From IMG/VR virus record IMGVR_UViG_3300042691_022461, positions 1 to 32,061 of that record: a stretch of 32,061 bases of DNA; one strand, given 5' to 3'. A model generated the notes under the pieces. It was not told the DNA's origin. It did not search any database and was given only the letters and a program-made list of their open reading frames with translations. How positions within the stretch are numbered: the first letter of the stretch is position 1; every line of letters begins with the position of its first letter. Origin of the DNA: a virus. A program made the position numbers and the translations under genes. This document shows positions 3,432-31,277 of this stretch, one piece after another.

Positions 3432-3556
3432 TTGTCCTGACAGGATTCGAACCTGTATCTCAGATTAACCTGACACCCACTTTCAAAGTTAGCTACTCTT
3501 TGTAGTTAGGACTGAGAATCGTCTACTATTGCGTCTACCATTTCCGCCACAGGACT
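3432..3556 (-). tRNA. tRNA-like element 2, Leu-like D-arm, over-long centre
   Basis: The minus strand has AGTCCTG at the 5' end and CAGGACA at the 3' end (first pair mismatched), a Leu-type D region (TGGCGGAAATGGTAGACGC), and the same T-arm as element 1 (ACAGG-TTCGAAT-CCTGT). A TCAG-GTTAAT-CTGA hairpin before the T-arm resembles a class II variable arm. The whole is about 124 nt, 35-40 nt longer than a Leu tRNA. The only nearby stem after the D-arm, TAGT with ACTA, encloses about 18 nt, and an extra CAAAG-CTTTG hairpin follows. It may be an intron-bearing or degenerate tRNA-Leu, or a processing element. Confidence 0.5.
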
Positions 3557-4131: not shown

Positions 4132-4154
4132 AACTTTTATTTTTTAATTTTTTG

Positions 4155-4225
4155 TAGTCCTGACAGGATTCGAACCTGCACAATGATTTTTTTTCTCAAG
4201 CGTTTTCCAATTTCGCCACAGGACT
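4155..4225 (-). tRNA. tRNA-like element 3, normal length but poor anticodon arm
   Basis: About 71 nt on the minus strand. The acceptor AGTCCTG/CAGGACT and the T-arm (GCAGG-TTCGAAT-CCTGT) are the same as in element 1, and the D-arm is GCG-AAATTGGAAAA-CGC. The anticodon arm region consists of TTGAG, eight A residues, then TCATTGT. At best TGA pairs with TCA around a nine-base poly-A loop, so no decoding anticodon with U33 can be assigned. The terminal modules are kept while the decoding part is not. The element lies 23 nt before the ATG at 4131. Confidence 0.45.
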
Positions 4226-5311: not shown

Positions 5312-8140
5312 TTAGAACTTATGACTAACACCCAATGTTAAAGTCACACCAGGATTAACACTATTGAATACTTGTTTCTCAGCTTTATAGGAGTGATAAA
5401 AACTTTCAACTCTATCATTAAGAATATTTTGAACTCTAAAATCAATTGATGTATTCTTAATCTTTTGACTTACAGAAAGATTCAATGAATGGAATGATTC
5501 ATCATAAACATCAGGAGATAATCCAGTTCCAACAATGGATAATGTTTGTCCTTTTACATTATAAAACAACCCAACATTCAAACCAATTTTATCGTTCTTA
5601 TAAGATATTCCAGTATTGATTACAAATGGTGATTGTCCTGCCATAACTCTTGTGTTGTCTATGTTTTCATTTAACCTTTCATATTGTTTTCTTGCTTGAT
5701 ATTCTGTCTCTGTCATCGTTATTTGTGACTTAACGAGTGTGACATTGGTATTGAAATAAAAGTTCTTTAGAAACGATTTTCTTAACTCCAATTCCAATCC
5801 ATACACATCACCATTTCCAACATTCCTTGGTTGATATTCAGTTGATGTTTGTTGTTCAGGTATTCTAACAAGTTCAATTGGATTATTGAAATGTTTATAG
5901 AACCCAGATATTGAATAGAAATCATTTTTATTTGATAACTCCCATCTTAAATCCAAGTTATCAATATTTGTTGATTTCAAATTTCCATCCCAAGTTCCAT
6001 TATATGTGAATAAACCACCATTGAATATTCTATTTGTGATTGGATCCAATATTTGGGCATAAGATAATTCCTTGAATGATGGTCTTGCAATTGTTCTTGA
6101 ATATGATGTTCTTAGATTTTGTTTTGGCGTTATTGAATATATGATATTTGTTGATGGGAATAGATTTATCGTTTCCATAACTTTATCATTAACCAAATTG
6201 TTTCCATTCACATCACCATTCGCATATCTTATATCTCTTCCTGTATGTCTTTGAATAAAGTATTCAGTTCTTAAACCCAAATTAATCTTTAACTTGTTCT
6301 TAATGTTATAATCACCTGAAACATATGCTCCAAGATTATTAACATTTGATGAATATTGATTTGGATTTGGATTCACATTACCAGATTGAATATAAGTTCC
6401 ATTAACATCAGATGGATATAAGTTATCACTATTCATTACAAGATTGGGGTCTGGTGATGTCCAAGATTGTGGTTTTGAAAACATCAATTCAAATAACTTG
6501 ATTTCATAGTTTCTCAATTTATATACGTGAGATAAACCAAAGTTCAATTTTAAGTTTTCATATTCTTTATTTATATCAATCTTTGATTGGTTATTAAATT
6601 CACCCAAGTTTCTCCATATTCTTGATGGGTTTCCCGCTTCACCTGATGAGAATGAATATGAACCATCATAACTGAATGGTGTTTTTCTAATGTCAGGGTC
6701 AATTGATGATGAATAAGTTGGGGACAATTTCCAATCAATATTCCAATTGTTTATTTTATGTTTTCCACTTAATAGTAAATTGGTTAATCCTCTTTGATTG
6801 TATTCAAGATTATATGATGTTGCATCATAACCTGATTGTCCAACCGCTGATGAATTGTTTGATATGTTAAACTTACCAGCTCTATTCTCACCACTCTGTA
6901 AATGAATAAGGTTTAATTTATATTTACTCTTACCTTTAACAAAATTGAATCCAACTAATCCACCCAATAGATTATTAATTTCAGTTAATTGTCCTGATTG
7001 TTTTGTTGCATAAATCAAATCATATTGTGAGTTATCAGTTACCCTTTGGTATTCACCATACTTTACATCAGTATAAAATCTATAATCTGTTTTTTGATTT
7101 AGTGATACAACATAACCAAACTTTTTATTTGTTCTTCCGTAAGAAAATCCACCACCAAAATCCAAGAATGGCATACCATTAACACCACCCAATTCAGGAT
7201 TCAAACTTCTTAATGTATTAACAATATTCTGTTGATGTTGTGCTGAACTTATAGTTGATGGTTTATTATATGGGGTTGGGATATAACTACTTCTTAGTTC
7301 ATTTGGTAATCTTCTTACTCCACCATCAAACCCTAATATATCAGTCATACTTCCGTTCTCACTAAAGAAATTATTATTGAAGTGGGTTTGGTTATTAAAT
7401 CCTGTGGTTATTGAAAATGAACCTTGTGGTGTTTCAGGTATATCTTTTGTTTCAATATTTATTAATCCACCTGTAAAATCTGCTGGTAATTCAGCTGAGA
7501 AACTTTTTGATACAACAATATTATTTAATAAATTGGTGGGGAATATATCCATTTGGAGTGAGTTTCTATCAGGATCCAATCCAGGTATTTCAACTCCATT
7601 CATTATTGTCTTTGAATATCTATCACCCAATCCTCTAACATAAACATACTTTCCATTATCTATTGATACACCAGTTACTCGTTTACTTGCTTCAACGGCA
7701 TTACCATCACCAGTTGATTTCATTTTCTCAGAACTAATACCATCAACCATTGTGACTGATTTCATTTTCATATCAATCAGACCAATTTCATTTTTAACAA
7801 TTCTGTCTGCTGTAATAACAACTTCACCAGTTTCTAATACATCTTCTTTAAGAATAATATCAGGGATGGTTGTTAATTCACCAACCAATACAATATTTTC
7901 TTGGATTTCTTTTTTATATGAGACATATGAGAACTCTAATGTAACAGTGTCTTTGTCTGAATCTATTGTGAATATACCTTCAATGTCTGTTGTTGTTCCA
8001 ACTGAAGTTTCTTTGATTATAACTGTAACACCAATTAATGGTTCTTTTGTGTTTTCATCAACAACTTTACCAATGATTGTAAATTGTGAAAAGGATTTAA
8101 ATGATAATAAGAGTAATAGGACTAGAAAGATATTTTTCAT
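5312..8140 (-). CDS. TonB-dependent outer-membrane receptor
   Basis: A complete 942-residue receptor. Residues 1-19 form a Sec signal peptide (MKNIFLVLLLLLSFKSFSQ). About 20-105 form a carboxypeptidase-regulatory-like domain (GKVVDENTKEPLIGVTV, DIEGIFTI). About 110-240 are the plug, with VRGLGDRYSKTIMNG, GLDPDRNSLQMDIFP and SAELPADFTGGLINI. The rest is a beta barrel ending in the aromatic SHKF. This is the Bacteroidota type of energy-dependent importer that works with TonB-ExbBD in the outer membrane. The substrate cannot be told from the sequence. There is no SusD-like partner nearby; the surface lipoprotein at 23878-25140 could be a functional partner but is far away. In a phage this would be an unusual host-surface gene. 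Confidence 0.93.
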   Translation of the reverse strand: MKNIFLVLLLLLSFKSFSQFTIIGKVVDENTKEPLIGVTVIIKETSVGTTTDIEGIFTIDSDKDTVTLEFSYVSYKKEIQENIVLVGELTTIPDIILKEDVLETGEVVITADRIVKNEIGLIDMKMKSVTMVDGISSEKMKSTGDGNAVEASKRVTGVSIDNGKYVYVRGLGDRYSKTIMNGVEIPGLDPDRNSLQMDIFPTNLLNNIVVSKSFSAELPADFTGGLINIETKDIPETPQGSFSITTGFNNQTHFNNNFFSENGSMTDILGFDGGVRRLPNELRSSYIPTPYNKPSTISSAQHQQNIVNTLRSLNPELGGVNGMPFLDFGGGFSYGRTNKKFGYVVSLNQKTDYRFYTDVKYGEYQRVTDNSQYDLIYATKQSGQLTEINNLLGGLVGFNFVKGKSKYKLNLIHLQSGENRAGKFNISNNSSAVGQSGYDATSYNLEYNQRGLTNLLLSGKHKINNWNIDWKLSPTYSSSIDPDIRKTPFSYDGSYSFSSGEAGNPSRIWRNLGEFNNQSKIDINKEYENLKLNFGLSHVYKLRNYEIKLFELMFSKPQSWTSPDPNLVMNSDNLYPSDVNGTYIQSGNVNPNPNQYSSNVNNLGAYVSGDYNIKNKLKINLGLRTEYFIQRHTGRDIRYANGDVNGNNLVNDKVMETINLFPSTNIIYSITPKQNLRTSYSRTIARPSFKELSYAQILDPITNRIFNGGLFTYNGTWDGNLKSTNIDNLDLRWELSNKNDFYSISGFYKHFNNPIELVRIPEQQTSTEYQPRNVGNGDVYGLELELRKSFLKNFYFNTNVTLVKSQITMTETEYQARKQYERLNENIDNTRVMAGQSPFVINTGISYKNDKIGLNVGLFYNVKGQTLSIVGTGLSPDVYDESFHSLNLSVSQKIKNTSIDFRVQNILNDRVESFYHSYKAEKQVFNSVNPGVTLTLGVSHKF

Positions 8141-19476: not shown

Positions 19477-21147
19477 TTAACCTCTTATTACTTTATTTAT
19501 CAAATTCCTAAAATAGTTTTCATTAACATTTTCACTTTGTATCATTTGAATTAATCTAGCCTTAAATGATTCCGCAATTCGTTTAACAAATGCAACATAT
19601 GGTGTTTCATCTTTCTTAACACCAAACGGATTATATTTGGTTATTTTAACAACAATACCATCTTCAACTTTGACAACTCTTCTCATTGTATCAATATAGT
19701 ATAAACCATCATCCAAAGGTTGTTTTTTTCCTCGTTTCATTTTAAATAACGAAGCATTAAGTTCTATATTTTCAATAATTAAATCATTAATATCAACTTT
19801 AATAATCTTATCTTCATTATCAGTTTTTCTAGGAGCTTTTTGTTCCTTGTTTGCCGGTCTTTTAGACCTAACCAAATAATTTAAACCTGAAATATTGGTA
19901 ATACATCTATGTCCACCACTATTTCTAAGTACAATGTTCCAACCACTTATAAAAATATTATCTAATATTTCTTTTTCTTCGTCAGATAATTTATCAAAAT
20001 GTTGATTCATTATATTTTGTAATTCCTTTTCACTTACATCTTCATCTTGGATTACATAATCGTTACCATACAATGCTTTTAAATCTCTATATGTGAAACC
20101 AATTGATTCTTCAGTAAACCCTGGGTCACTTTCCGAAATCCATTTTAAAGATGATAGACTAACTTTAATATTTTTAAGTTCAGTTTCAAATTCACTCAAT
20201 ACTTCATCTTTAACTTCACCTAAATTAACACCTTTCAATGCTCTATCTGTCTTAAATGGATTACAAGATACTTGAACCATCCCCATTGGAAATGCTGTTA
20301 TTAAGAAATCACCCTCTGGATTGTTAATAAATGGGGTATACCTATCATAAGAACCTTTTCTCCCAATATAACCTAATCCATATTGAAAGATAATCTTATC
20401 TTCAACATCAATGTCTTTATCTGTTTTTCTATCTTCAATATAATCAATTTGATTTTGTAATAATTCTTCAGATTTTTCATCAAAACTACCACCAACTAAT
20501 TCTTTTATCTTCAAATAAAGATTTATTGCGGATGGGGTACATTCCAATACTAATGTTTCCAAAAATCTATCCTTACTTTTGAATGTTAATAACCATTTAT
20601 TAACAATAAACATAAGCATAAATCTATTCTTAGTACTAGAATTTCTAAAATTAAAGTTTAGAATATCCTGTGGTGTAATATTATATCTAATAAAATCCGC
20701 ACTATCAATTGTTGATATTGCTTGAATATCAGTTCCATAAAATAAATCATTTGGGGATATTACATCAGATACTGTTTTAACATTTGACCTTGAATGTGAA
20801 AATTGTTTTGATTTGGTGAATTCTGCCCCAGCTTGTGTATCGTGGTGATCCGTATGAATTAAAAACATAGGTTTACCATGCGCAAAATCTACCAATACTG
20901 GCATAATTTTACCACTAGCATCTGGTTTCTTAATCGCAAATTCTGATGTTCCATATTGTATAACTTCAGCATCTACTGTTTCAATCCCATATCTTTCCAA
21001 ATACTTTTTCATAGCTAAAGCCGTAGTAACTCCATCCAGTCAAAGGTCCTGATGAAAGTAGATCTTCGCTTTTTTGTAACGAAGTGCAAGAGAATTAATA
21101 TCTCTTATTCCACTTTCAATCAGGACCATTTTTTGTTTTTTAGTCAT
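19477..21147 (-). CDS. DHH/DHHA1 phosphoesterase interrupted by in-frame TGA
   Basis: From ATG 21147 the frame reads MTKKQKMVLIESGIRDINSL...KIYFHQDL, meets TGA (21040-21042), and continues in the same frame LDGVTTALAMKKYLERYGIE to 19477. Without the TGA and one Leu codon the junction reads HQDLDGVTTA, the first metal-binding motif of DHH enzymes. The uninterrupted part (ATG 21012, 511 aa) has TDHHD at 54-58, TIDSADF at 101-107 and the DHHA1 motif NSGGHR at 364-369. Alone it lacks the first motif and should be inactive. Family members cleave small nucleotides or single-stranded DNA ends. Readthrough, stop-codon hopping, a mutation or a sequence error are possible. Confidence 0.85.
21037..21051 (-). 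other. Candidate recoding site CTT-TGA-CTG
   Basis: On the minus strand GAC-CTT-TGA-CTG-GAT lies within the first catalytic motif. CTT and CTG are both Leu codons flanking the stop, the arrangement of known stop-codon hops such as CUU-UAG-CUA. CTTTGAC is also the prfB frameshift heptamer, but a +1 shift here meets TAG after eight codons and would not restore the protein. AGGA just upstream could act as a weak internal Shine-Dalgarno site. Confidence 0.45.
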
Positions 21148-21181: not shown

Positions 21182-21207
21182 TAAAAAAAGGGTCATAACT
21201 GACCCTT
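21182..21207 (-). terminator. Terminator after the methyltransferase pair
   Basis: AAGGGTCA and TGACCCTT pair around TAAC and are followed on the minus strand by TTTTTTTATTTTA. The first arm overlaps the stop codon of 21206-22027. Confidence 0.75.
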
Positions 21208-22027
21208 ATTTGATATTTTTAAAAATATGTGTTATAACATCAATGGTCCACCCATTACCAAGTAATTTAAACCTTTCAGTATTTGAGATTCCCCTTGTAT
21301 AATTTAATGGTACTGTTTGTAATAGTTCACAATCTTGTGGGGTATATTTGTATATCTGACCCAATTCATTTTTACAAAAAGATGAAACCTGTCCTTTATA
21401 CATTGATGCCGTTAAACAAGATGCCTTATCTCTATAAGACTTAACAACATCCTTTCTTGTTCCCCTACCATAGAATGGTAAATCCAAATAGTTTGGATAT
21501 TTGTCCTTAAAGTCTGGAGTGATAACATCACAAATATTTAATCCCAAGTCTTTTGGTTGTGTTATATTTGGAATATTTGTCCAATACAACCTTGGTCTAT
21601 TCTGTGCTGAAACTAATCTACTATTAATCTTAATTGGTTTCACACCAAGATGTTCAGTGATTACATCTTGCCATTCTTCTCTCATTACAACATTCTCCAA
21701 TAAAAAATACTTTGGATTTGTTTCTTTTAATAGTCTAACATACTCAAAGAATAATTTACTCCTTGGGTCATTGAAATTCAATTGTTTTCCTACCTTTGAG
21801 AATCCTTGGCAAGGCGACCCACCTATTAATAAATCAATTTGTGGTAAATCACTTCCTTTAATTTCCGTTATATCCCCCAATTGAATTGTGTTGGGGTAAT
21901 TTTGTTGTGTAACCTTAATTGAACTTTTATCAATTTCTGACGCAAAATACTTATCATATTTTATTCCAATTCTATTTAGAGCAATTTGGCCACAACTAAT
22001 TCCGTCAAACAAACTTAATACATTCAT
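21206..22027 (-). CDS. C5 cytosine DNA methyltransferase, copy 2
   Basis: A 273-residue DNA (cytosine-5) methyltransferase with motif I LFDGISCGQIALNR, catalytic motif IV GGSPCQGFS, motif VI FLLENVVM, motif VIII SAQNRPRLYWTN and motif X LLGNGWTIDVITHIFKN. It is short for the family because the target-recognition part is small (about 175-225, including DLPFYGRGTRKDV). The start overlaps the stop of the upstream paralogue by 4 bp. No restriction enzyme gene is adjacent, so protection of phage DNA from host restriction is the likely role. Target sequence unknown. Confidence 0.93.
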   Translation of the reverse strand: MNVLSLFDGISCGQIALNRIGIKYDKYFASEIDKSSIKVTQQNYPNTIQLGDITEIKGSDLPQIDLLIGGSPCQGFSKVGKQLNFNDPRSKLFFEYVRLLKETNPKYFLLENVVMREEWQDVITEHLGVKPIKINSRLVSAQNRPRLYWTNIPNITQPKDLGLNICDVITPDFKDKYPNYLDLPFYGRGTRKDVVKSYRDKASCLTASMYKGQVSSFCKNELGQIYKYTPQDCELLQTVPLNYTRGISNTERFKLLGNGWTIDVITHIFKNIK

Positions 22028-22875
22028 AATTTAATATTTTTAAAAATATGTGCAATGACATCAACAGTCCATCCATTACCCAACATTGAATATCTATGGA
22101 TGTCACTTATCCCACAATTTGTGTAATTTACTGGTACATTCTGTAATCTCTCACATTCATTTGGTGTTAGTTTTCTTATTCTTCCACCCTGTAATAATCT
22201 AATTGAGTTATGATGAGGTAGAGTTAATGTTGGACATTTCCTATCTAACTTTACTTTTTTGTTATATACATCAATACAGGCAACATTTGGTGCGTTATCT
22301 ATATTAACTTTATTGAGTAATAATTCTGTGTTTCTTTCTTTTAACCAATATTTTTCATCAAATTCATCATCCAAAATATCCTCAATGAAAATATTTTTAT
22401 TTTTAGGTTGAGTTACATTTGGAATATTTGTCCAATATAGTCTTTGTCTATTTTGTGCTGACACTAAATTGCTATTAATTTTGATAGGTTCAACACCCAA
22501 CCCCTTTGATATTATATCCCTCCATTCTTTTTTCATCACAACATTTTCTAATAGAAAATATTTTGGTTGTACTTCATTCAAAATTCTAACAAATTCCCAA
22601 AATAAACCACTTTTACCATCAAAACCAGTTCCATTACCTGCTGATGAAAAACTTTGACAAGGACTGCCCGCAATTAACAATTCAATTGATGGTAAATCAC
22701 ATCCTTTAACATTCTTTACATCACCCAACTGAATAGTTTTTGGGTAGTTGTGTTGGGTTACTATTATCGTTTGAGCATCAATCTCAGAAGCATAATAGTT
22801 ATCATATTGAATATATGCTCGATTTAAGGCTAATTGTCCTCCGCTCATCCCATCGAACAAACTTAATACATTCAT
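22024..22875 (-). CDS. C5 cytosine DNA methyltransferase, copy 1
   Basis: A 283-residue tandem paralogue of 21206-22027, with motif I LFDGMSGGQLALNRA, motif IV AGSPCQSFSSAGNG, motif VI FLLENVVMKKEW, motif VIII SAQNRQRLYWTN and motif X MLGNGWTVDVIAH. The target-recognition part (KYWLKERNTELLLNKVNIDN...) differs from copy 2, so the two enzymes probably methylate different sites. It overlaps the HAD-like gene upstream by 4 bp. Multiple methyltransferases would protect against several host restriction systems. Confidence 0.93.
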   Translation of the reverse strand: MNVLSLFDGMSGGQLALNRAYIQYDNYYASEIDAQTIIVTQHNYPKTIQLGDVKNVKGCDLPSIELLIAGSPCQSFSSAGNGTGFDGKSGLFWEFVRILNEVQPKYFLLENVVMKKEWRDIISKGLGVEPIKINSNLVSAQNRQRLYWTNIPNVTQPKNKNIFIEDILDDEFDEKYWLKERNTELLLNKVNIDNAPNVACIDVYNKKVKLDRKCPTLTLPHHNSIRLLQGGRIRKLTPNECERLQNVPVNYTNCGISDIHRYSMLGNGWTVDVIAHIFKNIKL

Positions 22876-30626: not shown

Positions 30627-31277
30627 TTAGTCTTTCCACCTTCTTCCTTGTTTAATACAATAAATTGTATTGATGTTTATAGTAGGAAATAATTTATGAA
30701 TATCAACAACTCTTTTTCCATCTTGTAGTAATTTTTTTATTTCATTTATTGCGTTGATGTCATATTTTGATTTTTGTCTTTTAGTATTTTTTATTTTTTC
30801 GCGAAGAATTATTTTTTGTTCTTCATTAAATGTTCTACCCCAACCTGCCATTTTTCTTTTTTCTCTCTCTTCTTGTGCTCTATCCCCATAAATTTCATCA
30901 TAAGTTTTTCCTTTATGAGACTTTCCATTTTTAACTGCTTCAGAGATTTTCACTCTAATTTCTGGTGAATGTTTATAACCTAAACAACCTTCACCACCAA
31001 GTGTAGAGTTTAATCCATTTTCAAATGAATTGTATTCTTTAATCAGTTCTACTTCCCTCTCATAAATTTTTTCCAAAGAACATTCATCAATCAATTCAAT
31101 AGTAAACTTCTCAACACCATACTTCCTAATACTATTACATAATTTAGTATTAATATTTGTTTTTAAACAACGATAACAATGTTCTTCAAATCTATGTTTT
31201 AGGGTGTTTATCGTGCAACCAATATACAAACTATTATTTTTGGTATTTGTTATCTTATAAATTTTTCCATTTTCCAT
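30627..31277 (-). CDS. Free-standing GIY-YIG homing endonuclease
   Basis: A 216-residue protein with an N-terminal GIY-YIG nuclease domain (GKIYKITNTKNNSLYIGCTI, catalytic Arg29 in TLKHRFEEHC, Glu in IYEREVELIKEYN, and GLNSTLGGEG). DNA-binding NUMOD-like modules follow (GYKHSPEIRVKISEAVKNGK, HKGKTYDEIYGD) and a C-terminal helix-turn-helix (NEIKKLLQDGKRVVDIHKLF). Such enzymes make site-specific breaks and spread by repair. It is not inside an intron here but inserted between other genes, with its own box upstream. This makes it a mobile, selfish gene. Confidence 0.92.
   Translation of the reverse strand: MENGKIYKITNTKNNSLYIGCTINTLKHRFEEHCYRCLKTNINTKLCNSIRKYGVEKFTIELIDECSLEKIYEREVELIKEYNSFENGLNSTLGGEGCLGYKHSPEIRVKISEAVKNGKSHKGKTYDEIYGDRAQEEREKRKMAGWGRTFNEEQKIILREKIKNTKRQKSKYDINAINEIKKLLQDGKRVVDIHKLFPTININTIYCIKQGRRWKD

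Follow-up and report, generated by a model that had tools for sequence, protein, structure and literature searches.

A gene in the 32 kb IMG/VR virus record IMGVR_UViG_3300042691_022461 (32,061 nt, analysed whole and hereafter called the window) carries a stop codon between two leucine codons inside a catalytic motif, and the best reading of this arrangement is a programmed translational bypass, in which the ribosome would hop over the stop, located in a homing-type cassette (probability about 0.83). The minus strand carries a frame of 557 codons that starts at ATG 21147, preceded by ATATTTATT, ends at a stop at 19477 and contains a single in-frame TGA. The site reads CAT CAG GAC CTT TGA CTG GAT GGA, so that the TGA stands between CTT and CTG within HQDL/DGVTTA, the first metal motif (motif I) of a DHH enzyme, and deleting either CTTTGA or TGACTG yields an uninterrupted HQDLDGVTTA. 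The initial annotation of this DNA had described both the otherwise open frame and the restored motif, and our analysis reproduced them. Past motif I the protein contains VDFAHG, HTDHHD and SGGH in that order. Intact relatives matched the Pfam DHH family (PF01368) with E values of 1.5e-4 and 4e-4, under the gathering score, and a structure model of one of them (pLDDT 68) had PggH, PAP phosphatase and RecJ as its best PDB fold matches. The D-x-D metal motif is invariant among the intact relatives. Judged from its sequence and this model, the gene is a DHH-superfamily phosphoesterase of large phages.

The interruption is a recurrent state of this gene family. More than 600 IMG/VR contigs (numbered L001 and so on), a lower bound, encode the gene, and among the best 80 of these relatives most have an uninterrupted motif, while L001, L004 and L006 carry the same interruption as the window (95% and 72% protein identity to it). 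Pattern scans found the same site interrupted in 52 IMG/VR contigs besides the window. Together they form 33 distinct body sequences, the window included, plus 2 short ones, that is, about 35 distinct alleles, which are therefore a minority of the family. These contigs derive from many different metagenomes and some are 200-318 kb long, which places the interrupted gene in large phages. A search for the pattern in bacterial genome contigs returned no match. Because the interruption recurs in L001, L004, L006 and some 50 further contigs, it can be attributed neither to chance nor to assembly error, and we rejected the latter, one of three explanations that the initial annotation had offered. 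That annotation had also proposed looking for the same six bases in close relatives, and L001, L004 and L006 are interrupted likewise; the outcome that it named as fatal to its claim, a site intact in all relatives and a gene decaying here, is not what we found, since interruptions occur in many relatives and no decay is seen in the gene of the window.

All interrupted alleles share the layout CTN-stop-(0-5 nt)-CTN-GAY-GG, where the stop is TGA, TAA or TAG, so the same-family codons that had been noticed around the stop in the window are found in every one of them. Most alleles have identical codons on both sides, and the others combine CTT/CTG, CTG/CTT, CTC/CTT or CTT/CTA. The gaps measure 6, 8, 9 or 11 nt. 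The +6 alleles are mostly CTT TGA CTT or CTT TGA CTG, with CTT TAG CTT, CTT TAA CTT and CTG TGA CTT as further variants; the +8 alleles read CTT TGACG CTA/CTG, the +9 alleles CTC TGAGGG CTT and CTC TAAGGG CTT, and the +11 alleles CTT TGAGGGAA CTT and CTT TGACGGGT CTT. A search for longer gaps, up to 61 nt, gave none above +11, and this wider search gave no variant lacking a stop directly 3' of the take-off codon, a feature which the search pattern for the main set itself required. In every interrupted allele, hopping from one CTN to the next yields HQDLDGV, even across a change of frame. Since the +8 and +11 gaps require such a change and the +6 and +9 gaps do not, the set as a whole cannot be explained by one frameshift or readthrough event, and only a Leu-to-Leu hop serves all alleles. 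Bypass by a peptidyl-tRNA hop has become the best supported of the three original explanations.

Downstream of the stop, the interrupted genes evolve as functional proteins do. Pairs of interrupted alleles had ratios of nonsynonymous to synonymous divergence (dN/dS) of 0.04-0.19 in this region, often with dS above 1, similar to intact pairs of comparable dS, which argues against most interrupted alleles being dead genes. The catalytic motifs are mostly retained, and 32 of the 33 distinct alleles have no other in-frame stop, the exception being the L004 clade. The stretch of 8 codons from landing to the first downstream Met shows mostly synonymous variation (ratio of nonsynonymous to synonymous polymorphism, pN/pS, 0.16), a constraint that a restart of translation at this Met would not explain.

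The interrupted alleles also share signals around the gap, which we compared codon by codon in 27 distinct interrupted (hop) alleles and 51 intact ones. The codons before take-off are nearly frozen in the hop alleles (ATC in 26/27, TAC in 25/27, TTT in 24/27 and CAG in 24 of 24 Gln codons), giving the consensus ATC TAC TTT CAY CAG GAY CTN, against ATA TAT TTT CAC CAA GAT TTA in intact alleles. The Gln codon is CAG in all 12 diverged hop alleles versus 3 of 22 intact ones, and this change from CAA to CAG creates an AGGA, similar to a Shine-Dalgarno (SD) sequence, with a single nucleotide between it and the take-off codon. Nearly all hop alleles have a predicted anti-SD pairing energy of -4.0 kcal/mol here, whereas most intact alleles reach just -0.5 (p 6e-5). 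Once a +6 hop is made, this AGGA is 7 nt ahead of the landing codon, an ordinary SD spacing. At prfB, P-site pairing is destabilised when SD and P-site codon lie close together (Devaraj and Fredrick 2010, as cited in PMC8710568). Part of the freeze may be due to the tract having spread recently, yet the block is also retained in the +8, +9 and +11 lineages, where the sequence further upstream differs.

A 5' stem-loop is a further predicted signal. From about -48 to -19, predicted folds are more stable in hop alleles than in their synonymous recodings, with no such excess in intact alleles (mean z -2.2 vs 0.0), and the comparison over -51 to -13 among diverged representatives gave p 0.002. The stem arms vary in sequence yet stay complementary: CTTCGTT/AGCGAAG in the window, TTGGCT/AGCCAA in L129, GCTAGAT/ATCTAGC in L108 and CCGTT/AGCGG in L133. 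A hairpin spanning the gap, of the A-site or take-off type, was unsupported against synonymous controls (mean z +0.45), and a clear gap hairpin forms solely in the +11 alleles. Separately, intact DHH alleles fold more stably than synonymous controls at about +27 to +62 past the motif Leu (mean z about -1.7).

The 5' end of the gene moves between genomes as a converted tract. Three pairs of contigs represent occupied and empty sites (L119/L023, L108/L014 and L087/L009). In the first two, the sequences are homologous up to a gap before the DHH start, where one member has an insertion of about 0.9-1 kb containing an open reading frame (ORF) that we call c7, and homology resumes just inside the gene. 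L001 and L003 are about 97-100% identical outside the tract and differ just between the start of the gene and a point about 15-20 nt beyond the take-off codon; L082 and L034, both without c7, show the same tract difference. Such a difference is the expected leftover of break repair near motif I. The window shares with L109 an identical 84 nt up to and including the take-off codon, and the bodies of the two proteins are 45% identical. On the tree of gene bodies the interrupted state changes 14 times, of which at least 9-10 changes are forced by well supported branches.

Directly upstream of the DHH gene, c7, an ORF of about 300 residues, occurs in 15 of the 33 distinct interrupted alleles and in none of 53 intact ones (Fisher p 5e-8). 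A tblastn check found c7 similarity upstream of 16/33 hop alleles, also for L115 and L120, and again of 0/53 intact ones, and every one of the 21 close relatives of c7 in the collection sits on a hop contig. The protein has four Cys-pair motifs and a conserved H-x-D-H/N...N...K region. Its C-terminal half matches phrog_5104, endonuclease VII weakly and one homologue annotated as an HNH endonuclease, and it resembles stand-alone ORFs of T4-like phages. Relatives of c7 are also found upstream of other conserved phage genes, in the manner of free-standing homing endonucleases. Next to the +11 allele of L124 there is a different homing endonuclease (phrog_3339, E 9e-136). A LAGLIDADG protein near the +11 alleles was considered and rejected as a neighbour, as it is part of an SNF2 helicase and not adjacent; in L125 (5909-7837) an SNF2-type helicase gene is fused to, or carries, a LAGLIDADG segment, probably an intein or a remnant of one. 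In the window, a pair of neighbouring C5 DNA methyltransferase genes, related to each other, now lies upstream of the DHH gene; the window's cassette therefore either lost the nuclease or never had one. L001 and L003 have the same tandem methyltransferase layout with mutual similarity, a gene-conversion hotspot. The coordinates of these and other features of the window are collected in Table 1.

Table 1. Elements of the interrupted DHH gene and other features located in the window.
Feature	Position	Strand	Remarks
Stop-hop site	21037..21045	-	take-off CTT 21043-21045, stop TGA 21040-21042, landing CTG 21037-21039
5' ORF of the DHH gene, MTKKQ...HQD up to the take-off Leu codon	21046..21147	-	horizontally exchanged tract (identity with L109; bounds from L001 vs L003)
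DHH gene 3' of the landing codon (DGVTTA...)	19477..21036	-	motifs VDFAHG, DHHD, SGGH; Pfam DHH on intact relatives; fold match
Frozen block ATCTACTTTCATCAGGAC	21046..21063	-	directly before the take-off codon; from the codon table
SD-like AGGA	21047..21050	-	1 nt before take-off, 7 nt before landing codon
Predicted 5' stem-loop CTTCGTT-ACAAAAA-AGCGAAG	21064..21084	-	7 bp; predicted fold -6.5 kcal/mol
Two related C5 DNA methyltransferase genes	21206-22875		just upstream of the DHH gene
SusC-like TonB-dependent receptor gene	5312-8140		942 residues; assigned by sequence
Predicted tRNA-Phe	4154-4225		anticodon AAA, unusual for bacteria
tRNA-like match	3432-3556		scored by Rfam
GIY-YIG-type endonuclease	30627-31277		by sequence; another likely homing endonuclease in the window

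From these sequences we infer how the site would work, including the occurrence and efficiency of bypass, the expression of the gene, the roles of the SD-like site and the stem-loop, and the endonuclease activity and cut site of c7. The ribosome would read as far as the Leu take-off codon CTN, bringing the stop codon into the A site. There, the AGGA 1 nt upstream would pair with 16S rRNA and strain the codon-anticodon pair in the P site, while the stem-loop would re-form behind the ribosome. Peptidyl-tRNA-Leu would then let go, the mRNA would slide by 6-11 nt and the tRNA would re-pair with the second CTN, which at +6 sites lies 7 nt from the AGGA. Translation would restart at GAY-GG to give HQDLDGV, and a tryptic peptide across the hop would read ...IYFHQDLDGVTT... 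The most likely reason for the gap is that the converted 5' tract, with or without c7, protects the gene from being cut at motif I, and bypass would keep the enzyme intact despite the gap.

The alternatives differ in whether the stop is passed at all, and how. The gap might be an inactivating scar, left when a homing endonuclease cut motif I and repair added extra bases, with the alleles dead or expressed from a downstream start. The variety of gap sizes at one spot, the second stop of the L004 clade and the DHH gene of L171 (12-900), which lies beside a c7 fragment and has lost motif I through an in-frame deletion (DINS/TAIAM), are what a scar could leave. A scar would not be expected to preserve low dN/dS in deeply diverged pairs, open frames and catalytic motifs, to begin every gap with a stop between two CTN codons, or to come with frozen codons, an SD-like site and a stem-loop that intact relatives mostly lack; we consider it very improbable, and the inactivating six-base insertion suggested in the initial annotation conflicts with the same selection and open-frame data. 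Readthrough or reassignment of the stop, giving HQDL-X-LDGV with two extra residues, works for +6 alleles and, with three residues, for +9 alleles; it is impossible at +8 and +11, where frame continuity is lost, it would have to act on three different stops at one place, and it would split the invariant D-x-D motif, so that it is scarcely credible. Equally little weight falls on a prfB-type +1 frameshift at CTTTGAC yielding a short regulatory product. The CTT TGA C core is indeed identical to the release factor 2 (RF2) shift site, a correspondence already noticed from the window, and an SD-like element lies upstream, but the +1 frame ends after 3-23 unconserved codons (after 8 in L001, whose site is identical, in line with the early stop predicted for the window), the CTG TGA, CTC TGA, CTT TAG and CTT TAA variants misfit +1 re-pairing or RF2 control, and the SD spacing is 1 nt rather than the 3 nt of prfB. 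Shifting by -1 was rejected by gap lengths and frame checks.

It is unlikely, though less so than these three, that the hop is real and is retained to serve as a regulatory switch that responds to release factor, tRNA or growth state, instead of being a by-product of homing or a protection from it. Many hop alleles, the window's among them, keep the signals with no nuclease nearby, some c7 relatives adjoin intact genes, and hop-bearing phages encode tRNA-Leu(UAG). However, hop and intact versions replace one another between sister alleles in genomes that are nearly identical, which makes an important regulatory role less likely, and within the compared set c7 occurs with hop alleles only. The initial annotation had imagined a bypass that controls an active nuclease; such a regulatory purpose is less likely than a homing-resistance cassette, given that the gap is linked to an endonuclease-like gene. 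As observations on the tRNAs themselves, three hop-bearing huge phages (L254, L255 and L246) have, along with many other tRNAs, a tRNA-Leu(UAG) able to read every CUN codon, which at 75-77 nt is short for a tRNA-Leu, and ARAGORN predicts in L237 (24-103, the L093 contig) a tRNA with a four-base anticodon (actt).

Several observations weigh against programmed bypass in a homing cassette. A second in-frame stop lies about 83 codons past the landing codon in L004, L006, L089, L097, L105 and L111; it is a TCA to TAA change at a conserved Ser (SHSR-S-NVKT) in contigs that differ by at most 1 base, and could have arisen recently as a nonsense mutation within a single lineage, or could itself be recoded. 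No match to c7 was found in Pfam, among solved sequences or among solved folds (PDB, Foldseek), and its assignment as a probable HNH nuclease rests on the H-x-D-H/N residues, the C-terminal PHROG match and one annotated homologue. About half of the hop alleles, including that of the window, have no nuclease nearby. Distant c7-like ORFs, at 30-36% identity or similar in the C-terminal half only, lie directly upstream of uninterrupted DHH genes (L174-L178, L199, L211, L222 and L225), some of which have an altered motif I (THQDSDGVFSG in L178); the gap is therefore not required for every such nuclease, and nuclease and hop are separable. The stem-loop is not predicted in L004, L114 and L120. Finally, ribosomes of the likely host group have an occluded anti-SD (PMC8710568). 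The SusC-like receptor gene of the window suggests a Bacteroidota host, and the SD mechanism would have to operate on ribosomes whose anti-SD is possibly occluded. Ribosomal protein S21, a modifier of anti-SD access, was present in 4 of 15 records, hop and intact alike, and is uninformative.

Among known systems, T4 gene 60 with its neighbour mobA is alike in having a stop after take-off, matched codons, a 5' stem-loop, an SD near the landing codon, an HNH neighbour (here a probable one) and a cassette that protects from cutting, as the present one would (PMC5009743, PMC2988022, PMC11194080); the minimal SD of gene 60 is 6 nt ahead of its landing codon (PMC5009743). The phage sites described here differ in having gaps of 6-11 nt instead of 50, take-off from Leu CTN instead of Gly GGA, no supported take-off hairpin, and a DHH enzyme instead of a topoisomerase, with the gap inside the catalytic motif, and they form a diversified family with many alleles, four gap lengths and three stops. 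Synthetic stop-hops in E. coli, in which nine nucleotides encode one amino acid, share the stop between matched codons and the +6 in-frame hop (PMC5009743), but those are constructs, whereas the phage sites are natural, conserved and equipped with added cis-signals. The RF2 frameshift, used in 72% of Bacteroidia (PMC8710568), has the same CUU UGA C core and an upstream SD-like element near the P codon; the phage sites depart from it in SD spacing, in using TAA and TAG besides TGA and CTG and CTC as take-offs, in their unconserved +1 frame and in a landing codon 6-11 nt away. The mitochondrial bypass elements of Magnusiomyces capitatus are likewise short, skipped, mobile-looking inserts in many copies (PMC5009743); they are independent of mRNA context and occur in many mitochondrial genes, unlike the present sites, which occupy one position of one phage gene in a conserved context. 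Natural in-frame stop-hops were unknown to a 2016 review (PMC5009743), and we found none reported since in the literature searched, whose coverage leaves out many journals.

By their sequences, the interrupted alleles look like the first natural family of short stop-hops, travelling with a homing-endonuclease-like gene. We think it probable that they belong to mobile homing cassettes widespread among phages, in which resistance of the target site is marked by a minimal programmed hop of 6-11 nt over a stop in a catalytic motif; the hop would be driven by an SD that is overly close before it and well spaced after it, and the alleles would be the first natural in-frame stop-hops. To our knowledge, natural cases of translational bypass in bacteria and phages are very few, and T4 gene 60 is nearly the sole usable model. 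The alleles offer a natural series for testing ribosome release, slide and landing, with gaps of 6, 8, 9 and 11 nt, alternative stops, several codon pairs and matched intact sisters. They also carry a warning for viral metagenomics, where gene callers split or discard such enzyme genes. For the phages themselves, the finding suggests that the combination of bypass and homing endonuclease is a recurring evolutionary solution and not an oddity of T4.
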